Assembly: GCA_009886055.1 (NCBI GenBank)
Contig: VFJM01000025.1
Location: 1 to 33,038 of the forward strand
Length of the DNA stretch: 33,038 bases
Direction: 5' to 3'
Source: Geobacter sp.
GTDB lineage: Bacteria; Desulfobacterota; Desulfuromonadia; Geobacterales; Pseudopelobacteraceae
Shown here: positions 10,453 to 33,038 of the stretch, piece by piece
How the letters are laid out: each line of letters starts with the position of its first letter
Position numbering within the stretch: the first letter of the stretch is position 1
The notes under the pieces: generated by a model
What the model saw: only the letters and a program-made list of their open reading frames with translations
The model's database searches: none
Told to the model about the DNA's origin: nothing
Made by a program: the position numbers and the translations under genes

Positions 10453-10469
10453 GCGGGTATTTTACCCGC
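10453..10469. other. Hairpin overlapping the stop codon of the nitrilase-like gene
   Basis: GCGGGTA-TTT-TACCCGC perfect 7-bp stem; no adjacent U-tract on the minus strand. Confidence 0.4.
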
Positions 10470-11607
10470 CTGCCGCCGATTCATCGACGGTGATCTTGCT
10501 CCACACGCCAACCTCATCGACAGCCATGATCGCATGAACCTTGAGCGGAATCCGCGAGGTGCGCGGGTCAATCTCGTGCTGCGGAGGGAGGTTGAAATAG
10601 AGCAGCCTCGTTCCCTTGCCGAAGCGGAGTCGACAGACCGGGGCGCCATCAAAGTCATCCGTGGCAAATTCCGAGAGGCTGACTTGTGCCAGGCGATGAC
10701 TATGGTTGATCACGACGTACGAGCGGCCATAAGCGTCCTCTGCGGGAGAGCCTTCAATCGTGGTCTCCTCCGACACGTTGCCGAAGACGGTCACCGTCTC
10801 GCGCACACCCGGCATATCCTCCAGGTATTCGCCGTAGAAGCCGCTTATCACTTCACGATAGGCGTGGTGCTCCGGCTTGGGGTTGCACTGGATGACGAAC
10901 AGGGCGTCCAGCCCCTGCCGGGTCGTAAAGTAGAGCTGGTTGGCGTGGTCGATAATCTGCCGTATGTTCGACGTGTGCAGGTCGCGATACAGGTAATCGA
11001 GACAGATGATGGCCATGAAATTGAAACAGGAGGGACGACAGCGGAACAGGTAGAAATGCCTGCCACGATACAGGTCATGAAACGTGTCGATGTACTCCTC
11101 ACCGTGAAAGGGGTGACTCTTGGCCTCAAGAAAGACCCGCAGCCGGCCGTCGGCTTCCTTGACGGCGACGCAGCACCAGTTGACCGGCATATCCAGCACA
11201 TCGCCCGAATCGATATCGTGATCCACAAACCCGATCGCCTCGGCGTTATCCGCGCTGAAACGTTCCAGCAGGGCACGGTACTCACGCAACCGGATATGTT
11301 CGACACCGAACACCGTTACCGTATTCGGGCGGAATCGCTGTTCGATTACTGCCAGCATATCGTCGAAGCGGGAGGCGGGGAGGCTCGATTCGGGAAACAT
11401 CAGAAAATGGAGCTTCTTCAGGTTCCCTTCCCCGGCCGCCACCAGTTCCAGCACCGAGCTGACCAGGCGCCACTTTTCTTCAGGATCGACCAGGCAGAAG
11501 CCGATTTCCGCCCGCTTGAGATGGTTGGGAATCTGGGCGACCATGCAGTGCAGGTGATGCCCGAGGGGAAATTCCAGGTTTATCTTTTTATCGATAATTT
11601 CAGGCAT
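10462..11607 (-). CDS. Divergent carbon-nitrogen hydrolase (nitrilase superfamily)-like protein
   Basis: Candidate Glu in LHFLMFPESSLP, Lys in FLEAKSHPFHGEEY, Cys in FNFMAIICLDYLYRD. Start MPEIIDKK at 11607 overlaps the Nudix stop; the longer ORF start at 11757 is unlikely. Confidence 0.6.
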   Translation of the reverse strand: MPEIIDKKINLEFPLGHHLHCMVAQIPNHLKRAEIGFCLVDPEEKWRLVSSVLELVAAGEGNLKKLHFLMFPESSLPASRFDDMLAVIEQRFRPNTVTVFGVEHIRLREYRALLERFSADNAEAIGFVDHDIDSGDVLDMPVNWCCVAVKEADGRLRVFLEAKSHPFHGEEYIDTFHDLYRGRHFYLFRCRPSCFNFMAIICLDYLYRDLHTSNIRQIIDHANQLYFTTRQGLDALFVIQCNPKPEHHAYREVISGFYGEYLEDMPGVRETVTVFGNVSEETTIEGSPAEDAYGRSYVVINHSHRLAQVSLSEFATDDFDGAPVCRLRFGKGTRLLYFNLPPQHEIDPRTSRIPLKVHAIMAVDEVGVWSKITVDESAAGG

Positions 11608-12061
11608 CGACGCTATCCGCGAGGTCGTGCAAAGAGAGCTCCGGAAACAGTTTCCCCAGTATGTACCGCGCACCGGCCGGCATGGCGTAACCGCCCAACT
11701 CGCGACTGGGAACCCAGTCGGCCTCGGCGACCTCGTGCGTGTTCTTGACAACATCACAATAGAGCGGACGGCAGCGGTAATAGAGGATCAAGAAGTGGCA
11801 GTTTTCCTCACCGGGAGTGAGGTGTTCGAAGACATCGATCAGCCCCTCGATTTCTATCTCCAGACCTACCTCTTCATGCACCTCCCGCTTCAGCGCCTCC
11901 AGGATCGGTTCGCCGAGGTCGATCTTGCCGCCCGGCATAACCCACAGATCGAGGAAGGGGGGGATACTCCGCCTGGTCAGGAGCACCCGCCCGTCGTCGT
12001 CCACGATCACCGCCACAACCGAGGTGACGATGTGTTCTTTCTTGTAGCGCTTCTTCGTCAA
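11600..12061 (-). CDS. Nudix hydrolase
   Basis: Nudix box GGKIDLGEPILEALKREVHEEVGL (GX5EX7REUXEEXGU). Confidence 0.92.
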   Translation of the reverse strand: MTKKRYKKEHIVTSVVAVIVDDDGRVLLTRRSIPPFLDLWVMPGGKIDLGEPILEALKREVHEEVGLEIEIEGLIDVFEHLTPGEENCHFLILYYRCRPLYCDVVKNTHEVAEADWVPSRELGGYAMPAGARYILGKLFPELSLHDLADSVDA

Positions 12062-26640: not shown

Positions 26641-26894
26641 GGAATGCCTGATAGAATGAACGCATATTTCAGAGGTTTGAACGATCAAAACCTTTGCCAT
26701 GCCTGGAACTCAGCTCGCTGGAGGCAGGGGCGGGTTGCTTAGATCGCGTCATTGGTGTCCTTGATTGATTCATAGGGTAAAGAATCTAACAAATGAAATG
26801 GAATTAGACTTTGCGTCTAAATAAAAAAGTATTTGGATATCAGTCCGTTAACTGTTTAATAACGAGTTAGTAACTGTGCCGTCTAAATAAGCGG

Positions 26895-28304
26895 TTAAGC
26901 CCAAAACGGTACATAACTGCGGTATCTGAGCGAAGTAATAGTCGGGTCAGCCAGCTTGACAATCTCGGCTTCCATCGAATCCCGAATTACCCGTGACACG
27001 GATTCTGTTTTCTTCTCCGGTAACTTGAAGCGGTCTCGCAAGCTTTGGTTGGTCATCTTCTGGTTCATGACATATCTGAGGCAACAGTGCTGATAACAAG
27101 CCCTGATACGATCATTACGATCCATCTCTTCAAATTCTTTATGTGAGAAAAGAATCGCCTTTGTGTGTCGCTCGCCAACTCGGAAATCAGGAGCAGGAAG
27201 TTGGTACACTTCAGCGGCATGAATTACCTTGTCTATGCCACTCCCTTTTTCCTCGCAAATCCCCATACGTCTCATCAAGTCGGCAAGACGCTCATTACGT
27301 GATTGATATTCGTCGATAAAACGTTCGGGAGGGATAAACGGTTTGCCGGGGTTTGCTATCTCGATACGATCAGAATAGATTTCGATCATAACGGAACTGC
27401 CGCTTTCCATGAAGTCCTGATGGATGAGGGCGTTTGCCACCAGTTCCCGGATAGCTATCTCCGGAAACATCTTTACCTCATGGCGTAGAGCGGTTTCGAT
27501 CACCTCATTTGTGGGGATCTGTCCGTTGACAAAATCTATCAAACCCTCAAAACCTACGGCATACCCTTTGATGCCCGGTTTATCCAGACGGGTGTTCATT
27601 TTGCTTGTGCCGTCATACACAATGACTCGTGGTGCTTTGCGGGCAAGATCGGGGAATTCGTCAAGCCGTTTTGCAAGTAGAATTGCACCCAGATTGGTTA
27701 TGTCCCAATGTTCGCCTTGCCTGATGATCAGCCGTTCCCGTTCAAAACGATCCAGAACACCTTCCCGGTTAGCCGGATAAGGGAGTTTGAGCAGGTCAAA
27801 GTAGCTTTGAGAGTCCAACAGTCTGACCACATCGTCAGCGCTGCATTCCTTCAAGGTGTTTTGCGCCAACCAGTCCGCTTTGCCTTCATTGAAGATGCAG
27901 CGTAACCGGTCTTCTGTCATGGAAACGGTATCTTCGGTGGAACGCATCAAATAAGCGCCTTCAAACTGGTACGCAGTTCCTGCCGGTCGTGACGGGATGT
28001 GAAAGACAACTACCCGGCCATCGGGATGACTTACCTCTTCCACATCAACCCGGAGACGCAGCTTTTCAAATATCTTTGCTTGAATATCGCCAGGATTGGT
28101 GAATGCATTGCTGCCGACGACACGGCGGGGCAGCTTGTCGGTCACACCAAGGACAAACCTGCCGCCACCCTCATTCGCCAATGCTACGCAGTATCGATAT
28201 AGTTTGGTAGTGTCGTACTGGTTCTTGGCTTCCTTGAATTCAAGATGTTCGTCTTCGCGTGGCGCTGATATGAGGCTTTCAAGTTCAGGAATGCTGGTGC
28301 TCAT
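26895..28304 (-). CDS. Schlafen AlbA_2 domain plus GHKL-type ATPase (COG2865-like) and C-terminal winged helix-like region
   Basis: EDEHLEFKEAKNQYD...YCVALANEGGGRFVLGV (AlbA_2); EIAIRELVANALIHQDFMESGSSVMIEIYSDRIEIANPGKPF (HATPase_c_4-like); ATGA overlap with upstream gene. Confidence 0.85.
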   Translation of the reverse strand: MSTSIPELESLISAPREDEHLEFKEAKNQYDTTKLYRYCVALANEGGGRFVLGVTDKLPRRVVGSNAFTNPGDIQAKIFEKLRLRVDVEEVSHPDGRVVVFHIPSRPAGTAYQFEGAYLMRSTEDTVSMTEDRLRCIFNEGKADWLAQNTLKECSADDVVRLLDSQSYFDLLKLPYPANREGVLDRFERERLIIRQGEHWDITNLGAILLAKRLDEFPDLARKAPRVIVYDGTSKMNTRLDKPGIKGYAVGFEGLIDFVNGQIPTNEVIETALRHEVKMFPEIAIRELVANALIHQDFMESGSSVMIEIYSDRIEIANPGKPFIPPERFIDEYQSRNERLADLMRRMGICEEKGSGIDKVIHAAEVYQLPAPDFRVGERHTKAILFSHKEFEEMDRNDRIRACYQHCCLRYVMNQKMTNQSLRDRFKLPEKKTESVSRVIRDSMEAEIVKLADPTITSLRYRSYVPFWA

Positions 28305-31300
28305 GGCTCACCTTCTACTACTGTCTCATCAGATTGCTCAGTCCAGTCAGGCCATTGAAACTCCAGCCGCAGCGCTACTTCCTGTATCCAGTGTGGGATA
28401 CGTCCTTGCCGCTGCTTGGCATATTTCTGCCAATTAGTTTTCCAATCCAGGCTCTCAACAGCGTCCGGGGCATACTTGGCACGCCACGCTACTGCGCATA
28501 GCCAGTATGGTTGAGAATCATTTCTACCTGCTTGCGACAATTCATCCCAAGGTGCAATAACCTGTTCCATAAGTTCATCACGCTTTGTAGGAAGCGTAGA
28601 ACAGCATGCCTGCACAAAGGAGCAGCATATCTGAATAGGTCGTTGACGATGGGATGGAATATTCAGTGCTGTGCTATGAATTTGTGCCAAGTCATCGCTT
28701 TTGACAGAATAAGTAACAAGCATACTGAGTAGAATTTGAACGCAGTAGCTGTTGGACAGATCTTCGGTAAATCGTGCTGTGGCTTTCTGGACCAGCCGTT
28801 GACGTATTTCTAGCGCTTGCTCAGCATACCCAAGAGACCTTTCGTATTGTCCAACATCTATCAAGCGGATTGCATAGTTGTTTAATGACATTGCAAAATC
28901 GGGGTCGAAGCGATCTGGATTTTTCTGGGCCAGCCTTTTGTATATTTCAAAGGCATGACAGGCATGCTCCAAAGCTACTTCAACTTGCCCAATATCACTT
29001 AAGTAGATTGCACTGTTACTTAAGGATGTTGCATAGTCGGATTCGAAACGTTCAGGATTCTTATCTGCCAGTCGTTTGTTGATTTCAAGTGCCTGCTTGA
29101 TGTGGTCAAAGGCTTCTTTGTACTGTCCATTGTCTCTCAAACTACTCGCATAATTGTTTAAAGACCTTGCATAGTCGGGTTCGAAACGATCCGGTTTTCC
29201 CTGGGCCAGTTTTTTATGTAGTTCCAAAGCTTGGAAGGCGCGATCCAGAGCTGCTTCGTCTTGCCCTGCATCGCTCAAGTAGCTTGAAAGGTTGCTCAAG
29301 GAAATAGCATAATGTGACTCGTAACGATCAGGATGCTTCTCGGCCAACCGTTTATCGATTTCTAATGCTAGCAAGGCATGAACTAAAGCCTCTTCATTTT
29401 GTCCAGCGCCATTTAGGCGTGCTGCATAATTTCCTAGTGTCATCGCATGATCAGATTCGTAGCGGTTTGGATATTTCTGTGCAAGTCGTTTGTTGATTTC
29501 CAATGCTTGACGTGTATGATCCAAAGCCACTTCGTCTTGTCCGGCATCATCCAGGCGATTAGCGTAGTTATTTATTGATTTCGCATAATCGAGCGAAAAA
29601 CACTCCGGATTCAAAGGATGTAATTTTTTAAAAAGATTATATGCCTCTCGGGCAAAATCAAGTGCCTGCTCATCACGTCCTACCCAATGAAGTGATACGG
29701 AATAATTAATAATTACTCCTGCGTAACGAGCAAGTAACTCCGGTTTTTTATTTTTTTCCAATGTTTGTCGAGCTTTATTAACGAGAAACTCTTTTACCGC
29801 ACACCCCAGTTCTGCAAGTTGTACTGATTCCTGTTGTAAATGTGGATCCAGCAAACCTACGACCTGGCTTTTTGCCGCTGGTCCTAATCGAGCAAAAGCA
29901 GCTTCCGCCGCAGCCGGTAAATATCCTGCGGTCTCAATAACTACAGTCAATATTTCCTGATAACAATGAGCAAAATTGCGAGTTAAGGCATCTGTCAGTG
30001 TCTCGTGCAAATCTGGACGCTTGTCTGACAGCCGAGCTAGAACAGTTAAAGAATGACGTCGAATTTTCTGAGAAGCGGAACTTGAGAGAACAGCATCCAG
30101 CAAGCGAGGAGCATCAGAACCAACTAAAGCTTGTGCTACCAGAGCCTCACCAAGCAGATCAGGGCGTACCGCCTGCAAGCCTTGTTTTCCGGGGTAAAGT
30201 GGCACCAATGCTTTGAACAGAGAGTTGAAATCTGCTGGACTAAGGGTAGTTCCCCCCATTTTATTCCAAAACATCTGGGCATCTTTCGGTGTGGCAAAGC
30301 CGCCAGCCAAGGTGGTCAGCGCCAATAATTGCTGGGCATGCTGTTCCGGTTCGCTGAAGGTGAAATGGGCAAGCAAGCGGCTCCAGTAGCGGCGTTCGTG
30401 GTTGAGCAGCGCCTTAGTCAACCCCTCGGCGGTGGTCGGGCGTTCACCGTGCAGCGCCAACAGGGCTGCCATTTGCAAATAGAGCGGGCGGCCAAAATGA
30501 TCTCCCGCCAGTTCGGGCGTTACATCCGGTGCGCTCACCCCCAAGGCATCGGCAAAGGCGGTCAATGCCTGGCGATAGGCATGGCGACGGTCATCTTCTT
30601 CAGCGTGGAGCGGCGGCAGGGTATATGGTCCTGTCGTAGCATAGCCGGAGAGCAGAGCCTCGCAGTGCGGGTCTTTGCTCGGCAGATTGTCCCACCATTC
30701 CCCGCCATCACGGGCCAGTAACAATAGCCGGACTGGATGATTGCCGGGGTTTTGCACGATGGCTTTGAGCAGGGCGAGCAAAACTTGCTGCCGGGTTTCG
30801 GCATAATCGATGACAACCAAAACGGGCATATCGAATGTACGAAGCTGCTGCCAGGCACCTGTCATCTCCCGTTGTTCCAATTGGGCATCCAGTAACCCGG
30901 TATGCCAGTTTGCAATTGATCGTTGCTGGCATAGTTCCAAAGCCAAACGGGTCTTGCCCAAGCCACCCGCTCCGGTGATCAGTCGTACTGCATGCGGCCA
31001 CTGGTTATCGTCGAGCCAGTTATGTAAAGCGTCTAGATCGGGTTGACGAGCAGAGTCAAAAGGCACCAGTGCTTCTTCCGCCCGCAGCAACTGGCTGTCG
31101 GCCATACCACCACCAGCTTTCCATTGCTTTACCGGCATCTGTAACGGTGAAGATATGGTCGTGGCGGATTGGGAGGGGGGCGTGGGAGCGCTCAGTACCG
31201 ATGCTATCTGTTCGGGGGTAACTGGCGGCAAACTCCCTTTCTGCAATGTCCAGCCGAACGCCTCCACAGCGTCCTCCGCGCAATTGGGCCACGAGAACTT

Positions 31301-32497
31301 TGCAAGATTATTACGCAACCTACCTGCTATGCTACGAGCTTTCTCCGGCTTGTGCGCGATCTCTGTAAGCTTGGCAACAACTGTCGGCAGATCATCCTTA
31401 TGGAAATACGGATTATTGCTTGAAGCACGTACGCTAATCGAGTGCACTTCGTTGTCAAGATCCAATTCATCCAATAGCCGGTATACACCGCTGTTTTCAC
31501 TGATGATCAGCGGAACGCCCGCTGCAATTGCTTCCCATGCCGTAAGTCCGAAACCTTCATGCCAGGACGGCATCATCGCCACGCTCGAACCGCTCAAGTC
31601 GGCATAAAGCATCTGCCGATCCTGTGTAAAAGGTAAGGCATGGAGGTTAATTACTCGTTGTGCATATTCTTCCGCAAACTGCTTAAGTTCTGTTTCAGGA
31701 TTTATTTGGTTATCCTGGAGGGATGGAGATTCAAGATCGACACCGCGCAATACCAGCTTGGGTTCTTTACAGAGGCCATCCGGCATGTTTTTATCACATG
31801 CTTCACGGTGGGCCTGGGCAAAGGCAGCAATACCGAGATGTCCCTGTTTAATCCGAGCCGCGTCATCACTGAGCCGACCGCTGAGAAATGCGGTGAACTT
31901 CTTAGGCGGCTCACGAAGCGATATTTCAGCAAGTCCCGGTATCAACATGTAAACCGGTTTTGCAGCCTCAATCATATCACTCAATGCATCGCGCAAGAGT
32001 GGACCTATTGCCAGAGCAATATCGGCCTGCCTGAAAAGCGTTGTTTGCTCTTCGACTTTTGTTCTGGCTGTTGCTGAATCTTCGGCATACGACTCATAGT
32101 GATCGTAGCTCATATGATGTATCAGGGCAGAACGTCCTCCAGCCAGTTTTGCCGCTGCAATGGCTGCCACGCCGGTGATTCTGTCATGTCCTAACCATAC
32201 AGTATTGCCTAGTTCAAAAGTGATTTCACGGCGCTTTAATTCATCAATAGCTACCTGCGCATGAGCTTCGGAAAACAGCTTGTCCGCGGGAGAGTAGGGA
32301 AGAGGCACAAGAGTTACATATGCATTGCGGGCTTCCTCAATCTCTTCAGGTGTGGCGCTTGTCACAACACAAACAAGTTGCGCTCCGAGATAATAGGCAA
32401 TACCAAAATGATGCAGAAAGTCGGTATTAAAGCAATTGATGCCGCCGTATTTGCTTCCCCATTGTGTGGCAAAAGAAATTAGTGTGTGCACGTTCAC
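28301..32497 (-). CDS. Large GT4-like glycosyltransferase / STAND-type P-loop NTPase / TPR fusion protein
   Basis: GT4: KYGGINCFNTDFLHHFG, SGRLSDDAARIKQG, E-x7-E EGFGLTAWE (31532-31558). NTPase: Walker A GAGGLGKT (30950-30973), Walker B-like MPVLVVIDYAETR, LLLLARDGGEWW. TPR array 28742-29707. GTG start. Confidence 0.85.
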   Translation of the reverse strand: MNVHTLISFATQWGSKYGGINCFNTDFLHHFGIAYYLGAQLVCVVTSATPEEIEEARNAYVTLVPLPYSPADKLFSEAHAQVAIDELKRREITFELGNTVWLGHDRITGVAAIAAAKLAGGRSALIHHMSYDHYESYAEDSATARTKVEEQTTLFRQADIALAIGPLLRDALSDMIEAAKPVYMLIPGLAEISLREPPKKFTAFLSGRLSDDAARIKQGHLGIAAFAQAHREACDKNMPDGLCKEPKLVLRGVDLESPSLQDNQINPETELKQFAEEYAQRVINLHALPFTQDRQMLYADLSGSSVAMMPSWHEGFGLTAWEAIAAGVPLIISENSGVYRLLDELDLDNEVHSISVRASSNNPYFHKDDLPTVVAKLTEIAHKPEKARSIAGRLRNNLAKFSWPNCAEDAVEAFGWTLQKGSLPPVTPEQIASVLSAPTPPSQSATTISSPLQMPVKQWKAGGGMADSQLLRAEEALVPFDSARQPDLDALHNWLDDNQWPHAVRLITGAGGLGKTRLALELCQQRSIANWHTGLLDAQLEQREMTGAWQQLRTFDMPVLVVIDYAETRQQVLLALLKAIVQNPGNHPVRLLLLARDGGEWWDNLPSKDPHCEALLSGYATTGPYTLPPLHAEEDDRRHAYRQALTAFADALGVSAPDVTPELAGDHFGRPLYLQMAALLALHGERPTTAEGLTKALLNHERRYWSRLLAHFTFSEPEQHAQQLLALTTLAGGFATPKDAQMFWNKMGGTTLSPADFNSLFKALVPLYPGKQGLQAVRPDLLGEALVAQALVGSDAPRLLDAVLSSSASQKIRRHSLTVLARLSDKRPDLHETLTDALTRNFAHCYQEILTVVIETAGYLPAAAEAAFARLGPAAKSQVVGLLDPHLQQESVQLAELGCAVKEFLVNKARQTLEKNKKPELLARYAGVIINYSVSLHWVGRDEQALDFAREAYNLFKKLHPLNPECFSLDYAKSINNYANRLDDAGQDEVALDHTRQALEINKRLAQKYPNRYESDHAMTLGNYAARLNGAGQNEEALVHALLALEIDKRLAEKHPDRYESHYAISLSNLSSYLSDAGQDEAALDRAFQALELHKKLAQGKPDRFEPDYARSLNNYASSLRDNGQYKEAFDHIKQALEINKRLADKNPERFESDYATSLSNSAIYLSDIGQVEVALEHACHAFEIYKRLAQKNPDRFDPDFAMSLNNYAIRLIDVGQYERSLGYAEQALEIRQRLVQKATARFTEDLSNSYCVQILLSMLVTYSVKSDDLAQIHSTALNIPSHRQRPIQICCSFVQACCSTLPTKRDELMEQVIAPWDELSQAGRNDSQPYWLCAVAWRAKYAPDAVESLDWKTNWQKYAKQRQGRIPHWIQEVALRLEFQWPDWTEQSDETVVEGEP
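28742..29707 (-). repeat. Seven tandem 46-aa TPR units (138-bp period) inside the STAND protein gene
   Basis: Units begin NYSVSLHW, NYANRLDD, NYAARLNG, NLSSYLSD, NYASSLRD, NSAIYLSD, NYAIRLID; the equivalent base sits at 28894, 29032, 29170, 29308, 29446, 29584 (exactly 138 apart). Confidence 0.9.
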
Positions 32498-32522
32498 CCC
32501 ACCTGGATAATGAAGTTGTTCG

Positions 32523-32551
32523 ATTGTAAATAGCTGTTATTTCAACACCAA
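32523..32551 (-). promoter_or_regulatory. Candidate promoter for the GT-STAND/Schlafen gene pair
   Basis: Minus strand TTGGTG-N17-TACAAT ending about 26 bp upstream of the GTG start; -35 weak. Confidence 0.3.
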
Positions 32552-32616: not shown

Positions 32617-33038
32617 TCACATCCGATTCATCAGACTCGCGGCGCAGGCGGCTCCAAAACCGTTGTCGATGTTGACGACCGTTACCCCGGAGGCGCAGGA
32701 GTTGAGCATCCCGAGCAGAGCCGCGATGCCGCCGAAGGAAGCGCCATACCCGACCGAAGTCGGCACCGCAATCACCGGTTTATCCACCAGCCCTCCGACG
32801 ACCGAAGGGAGCGCACCTTCCATGCCGGCCACCACGATAATGACCGCGGCTGCGTTCAACTGTTCGCTCCGGGCCAGCAGCCGGTGAATACCGGCCACGC
32901 CGACATCGTAGATCTGCTCGACCTGGTTACCCAGAAAGCGGGCCGTTACGAGCGCCTCTGCCGCAACCGGAATATCGGACGTGCCGGCTGAAACAACCAG
33001 AATCGTCCCCTTCCCCCGCTGTTCCGGCGGCTGATGCT
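32617..33038 (-). CDS. larB: LarB: pyridinium-3,5-biscarboxylic acid mononucleotide synthase (partial, 5' end beyond window)
   Basis: [123 protein letters not shown]; frame open to the window edge. Confidence 0.92.

Follow-up and report, generated by a model that had tools for sequence, protein, structure and literature searches.

Locus and Gene Content

The DNA analyzed here, hereafter the window, is contig VFJM01000025.1 of a Geobacter sp. (assembly GCA_009886055.1) at its full length of 33,038 nucleotides (nt). Its minus strand carries a compact two-gene cassette in which a large protein (P1), combining a GT4-type glycosyltransferase domain, a STAND NTPase and a TPR region, is followed by a Schlafen-type protein (P2). 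The two open reading frames (ORFs) overlap by 4 nt (28301-28304), the start codon of P1 is GTG, and the cassette is present as a single copy in its own genome. Both ORFs and their overlap had been described in an initial annotation of this DNA, and we obtained identical coordinates, strand and lengths; the domain calls made there were likewise borne out, by Pfam matches to GT4-conflict, TPR, SLFN_AlbA_2 and HATPase_c_4 and by STAND motifs that are kept in homologues. The insert splits the lar operon, which serves the nickel cofactor, between larB and larC. As the window is an entire contig of a 434-contig assembly, larB is cut at the contig end.

28301-32497, minus strand: P1, 1398 amino acids (aa); GT4-conflict domain, STAND NTPase, TPR region and C-terminal domain
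26895-28304, minus strand: P2, 469 aa; Schlafen AlbA_2 domain, GHKL ATPase and winged helix
25323-26504, minus strand: larC, right flank (NCBIfam LarC1/LarC2)
32617-33036, minus strand: larB, left flank; the contig end leaves its C-terminal 139 aa (NF033503 LarB, E 6.4e-68)
26778-32545, minus strand: the cassette as shared with Pelobacter sp. GS8_6, where it occupies another chromosomal site (blastn blocks and boundary alignment)

By blastn and boundary alignment, the shared cassette DNA begins ~48 nt ahead of the P1 start codon and ends ~85-117 nt past the P2 stop codon. The boundary alignment revealed no integrase, transposase or clear target-site duplication at the cassette ends, and scans for promoters and terminators gave nothing notable relative to shuffled sequences.

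P1 Combines a GT4-Conflict Domain With a STAND-TPR Body

31274-32476, minus strand: GT4-conflict domain, residues 8-408, predicted effector (PF20706, E 2.6e-78)
31532-31558, minus strand: GT4 EX7E motif, E314...E322, invariant in 12/12 homologues
30128-31090, minus strand: STAND NTPase core, residues 470-790, with Walker A/B, sensor-1-like and GxP-like motifs
30950-30973, minus strand: Walker A motif GAGGLGKT, residues 509-516, with K515 invariant
28841-29668, minus strand: TPR array of 46-aa (138-nt) units, seen as 138-nt direct repeats (Pfam TPR_10/TPR_12), candidate sensor
28304-28777, minus strand: C-terminal domain, residues 1241-1398, the final ~50 aa of which are conserved again

The N-terminal part of P1 is a member of the PF20706 family, matching profile positions 2-383 of 385 with a score of 264 bits (cutoff 26). 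The glycine loop, HD, R/K pair and EX7E motif that make up a retaining GT-B site are all kept in 12/12 P1 homologues. The top Foldseek matches of the P1 model, which is of low confidence, are the GT4 enzymes MshA, GlgM and WaaG, and the STAND protein EfAvs5 (9jap) is listed among the matches as well. In Pfam, the STAND domain does not reach threshold; P1 nevertheless has the Walker A and Walker B motifs, the GxP-type motif after the NTPase and the repeat superstructure that define a STAND NTPase, and it is homologous to nSTAND5-type proteins. In 12 homologues, Walker B (VIDYAE, D564), a sensor-1-like motif (RLLLLAR) and a GxP-like motif (GRPLYLQ) are also found. Given the conservation of both sets of motifs, P1 looks like an active GT-B enzyme mounted on an active STAND switch. 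Among P1 orthologues, the TPR units that follow differ in number and sequence.

From residue ~461 onward, over its STAND-TPR half, P1 matches proteins from actinobacterial plasmids, and the STAND part alone is ~30-34% identical to them (E 1e-17 to 1e-27). These proteins (Trypco2/trypsin; Pfam nSTAND_NTPase5) thus share a homologous chassis with P1 but differ in carrying trypsin-like or other N-terminal parts, and a gene for Trypco2, which was named by Kaur et al. (2020; PMC7159879), adjoins most of the loci examined in place of a GT4 domain and a Schlafen gene. In the same phylum as the window, one protein (L163:4944-8444, genome G518) keeps the STAND-TPR chassis but, where GT4 would be, has an N-terminal PNP_UDP_1-like match, and another (L162) is a divergent GT4-STAND-TPR protein. 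Because the chassis occurs elsewhere with other N-termini, GT4 is, judged by sequence comparison, one head among several on a shared receptor body, as would be expected for an effector.

Fusion of GT4 to STAND NTPases as a predicted effector is not new (Kaur et al., 2021; PMC8195603). The GT4-STAND proteins of that study have the same GT4 family (PF20706) on a STAND module and were predicted to act against invaders; there, GT4 is described as often C-terminal or as part of a two-STAND operon, and Schlafen proteins are not mentioned. P1 differs in its N-terminal GT4, single active STAND, TPRs and Schlafen partner. A broader resemblance exists to Avs/AVAST proteins such as the SIR2-STAND protein EfAvs5 (PDB 9jap), which also place an N-terminal effector before a STAND module and a C-terminal repeat sensor, although their STAND subfamily and effector are different and the PADLOC models for Avs1-5 were not matched.

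P2 Belongs to a Family of Schlafen-Type Accessory Proteins

28137-28256, minus strand: Schlafen ribonuclease (RNase)-type triad E17, E22, D56 (plus K24), invariant in 13/13 diverse homologues
27153-27401, minus strand: HATPase_c_4 (GHKL) domain, residues 302-384 (PF13749, E 6e-23)

P2 was initially called a Schlafen/GHKL protein, which holds for its AlbA_2 domain (SLFN_AlbA_2, PF04326, E 1.6e-13) and its GHKL domain; what had been missed is the RNase-type triad, the kinship with type I restriction loci and an architecture already known from BREX auxiliaries. P2 has the SLFN AlbA_2 domain with an E...E...D triad expected of bacterial Schlafen accessory RNases, and the P2 profile matches SLFN13/SLFN14 at the triad position (E 5e-5). 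In SLFN13, the triad E205/E210/D248 is needed for tRNA cleavage (PMC5862951). The AlphaFold model of P2 has a mean predicted local distance difference test (pLDDT) score of 88, with PDB 3lmm as the nearest structure and SLFN N-domains lower in the list. P2 ends in a GHKL domain and a winged helix, the latter being assigned from the secondary structure of the model only. PADLOC matches to pAgo-associated proteins were partial, reflect shared domains and were set aside.

The nearest unpaired homologues of P2 lie at type I restriction loci. In Acidovorax the order is hsdM-hsdS-P2-hsdR, likewise with a 4-nt overlap; a further homologue occupies such a locus in Picosynechococcus, and within the same order as the window four relatives (L070-L073) adjoin hsdS and/or hsdR. 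Others are found between antiphage genes for a DUF1156 methylase and a PLD protein and inside an Aliarcobacter hsd locus. Burkholderia phage Musica and Streptococcus satellite phages also encode P2-type Schlafen homologues (L107, L108), which adjoin the integrase in the latter. In the tree, the four P1-linked P2 proteins cluster (92/100 support) within this group of homologues, consistent with a single capture. Type I restriction loci are the likely source of P2.

In at least 1017 taxa, BREX and BREX-related (BR) loci are linked to Schlafen RNases that carry a minimal kinase and a winged helix-turn-helix at the C-terminus, and these are reported as auxiliary or back-up RNases of such systems (PMC12839542, a 2026 BREX survey); the same survey refers to a preprint (Taboada et al., 2025) on the part that bacterial Schlafens play in antiphage defence. 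P2 resembles these auxiliary Schlafens and MloB-type genes in domain order, triad and accessory position. The partner of P2 is a STAND receptor, whereas BREX/BR and type I restriction are DNA methylation-based systems, and P2 in the window is flanked by P1 and larC rather than residing within an hsd locus as MloB-like genes do. That P2 proteins accompany methylation-based systems as well as a STAND receptor suggests a role independent of GT4 chemistry. Since the same gene is also found with type I restriction and BREX-related systems, P2 is most likely a second effector, and our preferred guess, by analogy, is that it may serve as a second-line or guard RNase.

PrrC offers a parallel: this anticodon nuclease guards EcoprrI and fires when its partner is blocked. 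Like the kin of P2, it is encoded by an RNase gene inside a type I restriction locus; the likeness is one of analogy only, PrrC being an ABC-type ATPase with a HEPN nuclease whereas P2 has a GHKL domain and a Schlafen fold.

An alternative that we regard as rather doubtful is that P2 regulates the operon through winged-helix DNA binding and a GHKL switch, its AlbA_2 domain merely binding nucleic acid. The helical, winged-helix-like C-terminus of the model would fit this, as would the conserved inverted repeat just downstream of P2 (see below), and AlbA_2 was taken as DNA binding in older literature (PMC6299218). However, the triad is invariant, which would not be required of a domain that only binds nucleic acid; P2 also comes last in the operon, and its kin in BREX loci have been assigned to the Schlafen RNases. 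An accessory RNase remains the reading of P2 followed here.

P1 Is Scattered and P2 Is an Optional Partner

Full-length relatives of P1 are rare and scattered, occurring in 5/141 genomes of the order, and a profile search of the phylum recovered 4/395 sampled genomes, one of the four with the STAND part only. Beyond these, full-length homologues are present in Nitrospirota, Syntrophales, Gallionellales, Sideroxydans, Nitrosomonadales and Methylococcaceae. There was no match to P1 in the phage and viral collections searched, and P1 is therefore not known phage cargo.

This distribution bears on whether P1 could simply be a metabolic protein that takes part in polysaccharide synthesis or in the nickel-pincer (lar) pathway. 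A GT4 fold with an intact active site and a position inside the lar operon would suit such a role, but P1 is absent from most congeners with an intact lar operon, it is fused to STAND and TPR parts, and its best Pfam family is conflict-associated. Homologues consistently sitting in polysaccharide loci had been named in the initial annotation as grounds for abandoning an immune function; where neighbours were tested, P1 homologues lie outside such loci. Both metabolic roles are thus largely excluded on distribution and context, and we regard them as very improbable.

P2 directly follows P1 in four Geobacterales genomes, namely those of the window, Trichlorobacter thiogenes, Pelobacter sp. GS8_6 and Geobacter sp. 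UBA6802. Chance pairing is excluded because the pair recurs in three genomes besides the window with the identical 4-nt overlap (4/4 pair loci). These cassettes occupy three chromosomal sites: larB-larC in the window; a position downstream of a tRNA-synt_1c (GluQ-like) gene, which flank comparison shows to be the same in T. thiogenes and UBA6802; and a site near ferredoxin, PEP-CTERM and UbiD genes in Pelobacter sp. GS8_6. Co-occurrence of the two genes, a check proposed in the initial annotation, therefore holds for four genomes and three sites within one family but fails at eight other P1 loci, where P2 is absent (L023, L030-L032 and L034-L037; this count excludes L029, at a contig end, and L033, with a truncated P1, and includes L037, in which the P1 reading frame is seemingly interrupted). 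An obligate two-gene system was rejected on these eight loci; P1 is the core and P2 is an optional, non-essential add-on. At one of them, in Syntrophales (L031:5727-8377), two GHKL genes lie directly upstream of the P1 homologue, one encoding an AlbA_2-HATPase with a Fic-like C-terminal domain and the other a DUF4062-HATPase.

The eight loci, the nearest relatives in type I restriction loci and the homologues that stand alone in phage and satellite phage would also suit a reading in which P1 alone is the defence system and P2 a hitch-hiking Schlafen gene from a type I restriction locus, functionally unlinked to it. We hold this to be an improbable, though not a negligible, explanation: the 4-nt overlap is kept in all pair loci despite their three sites, P2 is strongly constrained (nonsynonymous divergence, pN, 0.015-0.037), and it has not been lost from pair loci.

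A described counterpart of the pair was sought in several ways. No PADLOC system model covers both P1 and P2, a literature search for the pairing found nothing, which is not proof of absence (the supplementary tables of Kaur et al., 2021, may list similar architectures), and a search on "GT4-conflict" was equally without result. The earlier statement that the pairing is not a named system agrees with this, but it needs the qualification that GT4-STAND fusions and Schlafen accessories are each known predictions. The parts that look new are the P1-P2 pairing, the swapping of two cassettes within P1 and the larB-larC hotspot.

The larB-larC Junction Is an Insertion Hotspot

The junction was surveyed in 32 readable genomes of the same genus (loci L080-L099, L131 and L132). 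In 21/32, larB is directly followed by larC (1-6 nt apart or overlapping), which establishes that the insertion in the window is real; in the remaining 11/32, the window included, the two genes are split by 0.7 to 6.6 kb. The control junction larC-cinA, by comparison, is uninterrupted with a 4-nt overlap in 26/26 measurable cases (11/32 vs. 0/26 occupied; Fisher p 6e-4, for genomes that are related and not independent). The initial annotation placed the cassette among housekeeping genes, which is accurate as regards its flanks, larB and larC, but the site is an insertion hotspot and not a random housekeeping context. A literature search for a larB-larC defence hotspot yielded nothing relevant. 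Most of the inserts carry defence or toxin-antitoxin genes, with SoFic/Fic and DUF1016 PDC-S02 among the matches:

G031: bSEFIR (1.5e-78) and Fic
G009 (L081:1649-7445): 887-aa SMEK-STAND protein weakly similar to Avs2, radical SAM/SPASM protein, DUF1016/YhcG
G017: DUF1016
G035: Dsr1-like protein and Fic
G008: another SLFN/GHKL gene
G001: SNF2 helicase, a match that may be generic, and AAA_14/DUF4143 (PDC-S01)
G011: VapBC; the G022 insert matches this one, judged by sequence
G002: PemK
G018: small ORFs

As a control for PADLOC, housekeeping genes of the window were searched, and 2/10 matched at E < 1e-3, with a best value of 2.5e-24. This threshold being unspecific, only stronger matches were counted; those to bSEFIR, DUF1016, DUF4143, Dsr1-like and Fic all exceed the control best. 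The latter is an LmuA match of an apparent housekeeping protein (window 10462-11757) that probably reflects a shared domain and is used as a control only. The G009 insert is possibly another undescribed module. In genome G020, a second copy of the lar operon (L147, G020:C117) likewise has small ORFs between larB and larC.

Some inserts retain traces of the cassette. The last 92 codons of P2 (95% identical) are left in G031 and the last 21 (86%) in G009, in both cases with the element found at the 3' end of the cassette, so that a P2-bearing cassette was formerly there and has been overwritten. In the window, the end of the 390-nt stretch from P2 to larC is shared with the G018 and G017 inserts, which suggests layered insertions at this junction.

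26804-26820, minus strand: conserved 3' element TTAGACGCAAAGTCTAA, an inverted repeat with the shared core motif, at the end of the cassette

The core of this element, ATTTAGACGCAAA, lies ~70-90 nt after P2 and forms an inverted repeat, TTAGAC-GTCTAA, in some copies. It follows P2 in 4/4 pair loci, is found in the G009 remnant and as a one-base variant in that of G031, and also occurs 3' of the type I restriction-linked P2 in L070 (positions: window 26804-26820; L026 14404; L027 14421; L028 14697; L070 2976; also L080 and L081). The element may be a terminator, an operator or a recombination site.

The contents of the hotspot raise the question of whether the cassette persists mainly as a selfish or addictive, toxin-antitoxin-like element, through its own stability and not through immunity. 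The site does take plain toxin-antitoxin pairs (VapBC and PemK), and the remnants show gain and loss. Nonetheless, the cassette has no antitoxin-like partner, its STAND-TPR architecture and sensor exchange are typical of receptors, and P1 occurs alone; we therefore consider a selfish element unlikely and retain an immune function as the working interpretation.

Segments of P1 Are Exchanged Around a Conserved STAND Core

31298-32017, minus strand: exchanged GT4 segment, residues ~161-400 (synonymous-site divergence, pS, 0.61-0.76 between T. thiogenes and UBA6802)

The cassettes of T. thiogenes and UBA6802, which share one site, allow divergence to be followed along P1. Synonymous difference is 6% over residues 1-80 and pS is 0.00-0.06 over residues 471-710 of the STAND core, in contrast to the GT4 segment above and to the TPR region (residues 851-1320), where 54-80% of synonymous sites differ; for P2 the value is 17%. 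As selection at the protein level is not expected to yield such synonymous jumps, the TPR region and half of GT4 have most likely been exchanged by recombination around a near-constant STAND core. In the window, the GT4 middle of P1 is closer to T. thiogenes, but residues 1-80 and P2 are closer to Pelobacter (pS about 0.3 in each case). The exchange may serve recognition and escape.

Proposed Function of the Cassette

Taken together, these data make it fairly probable that the cassette is an antiphage (or anti-element) STAND module that moves laterally and combines a GT4 effector with an accessory Schlafen-type RNase. P1 would be a STAND immune receptor whose TPR region recognizes an invader-derived or infection-altered protein. 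As in other members of the family, ligand binding would lead to nucleotide exchange and oligomerization of the STAND module, and this switch would activate the N-terminal GT4 glycosyltransferase, whose active site is intact by sequence. The enzyme may then glycosylate a host or phage target or drain a nucleotide sugar, whereby infection would be stopped. P2 would be an accessory endoribonuclease controlled by its GHKL ATP-binding domain and would serve as a second effector, possibly of the guard type, cutting tRNA once the partner system is triggered or disabled. Exchange of the TPR region and half of GT4 could diversify recognition and effector against phage escape.

An antiphage function had already been proposed in the initial annotation. 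The motifs, patchy distribution, different sites, defence neighbourhoods and sensor turnover favour a STAND module with a GT4 effector, but conservation does not extend to the pair as a unit. Besides the P1 loci that lack P2, several observations weigh against the proposal. The AlphaFold model of P1 residues 1-960 is of low confidence (pLDDT 68; predicted template modelling score 0.42), and PADLOC returned no family for P1 at E ≤ 0.1, Avs models included, so that the model search suggested earlier leaves P1 without a model and P2 with only partial matches. The hotspot statistics come from one genus, whose members are not fully independent. Defence genes near P1, another check proposed earlier, are in evidence in the hotspot inserts and at L037:1520-4897, a metagenome-assembled genome of Nitrosomonadales in which an apparently frameshifted P1 homologue lies ~1.7 kb from a Wadjet JetC gene, but several P1 homologues (e.g., L034, L036, L162) have housekeeping neighbours only, where tested.

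A bolder and decidedly tentative extension is that P2 is a portable guard RNase placed in unrelated defence systems, killing when its partner is disabled, while the STAND receptor swaps sensor and half-effector cassettes around a frozen switch. The cassette would then possibly combine two mutually backing lines of defence.

Implications

Glycosyltransferases have been predicted as immune effectors of bacterial STAND receptors and of invertebrate immune proteins, and a literature search found no experimental test of glycosyltransferase immune effectors, for which this compact cassette is a good object. T. thiogenes and UBA6802 supply natural variants with near-identical STAND cores and exchanged TPR and GT4 segments, so that trigger and effector specificity can be tested by comparing natural alleles. 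P2 represents one RNase gene family common to three unrelated kinds of defence system and thus bears on back-up immunity, and further defence genes of Geobacterales can readily be sought at the larB-larC junction.

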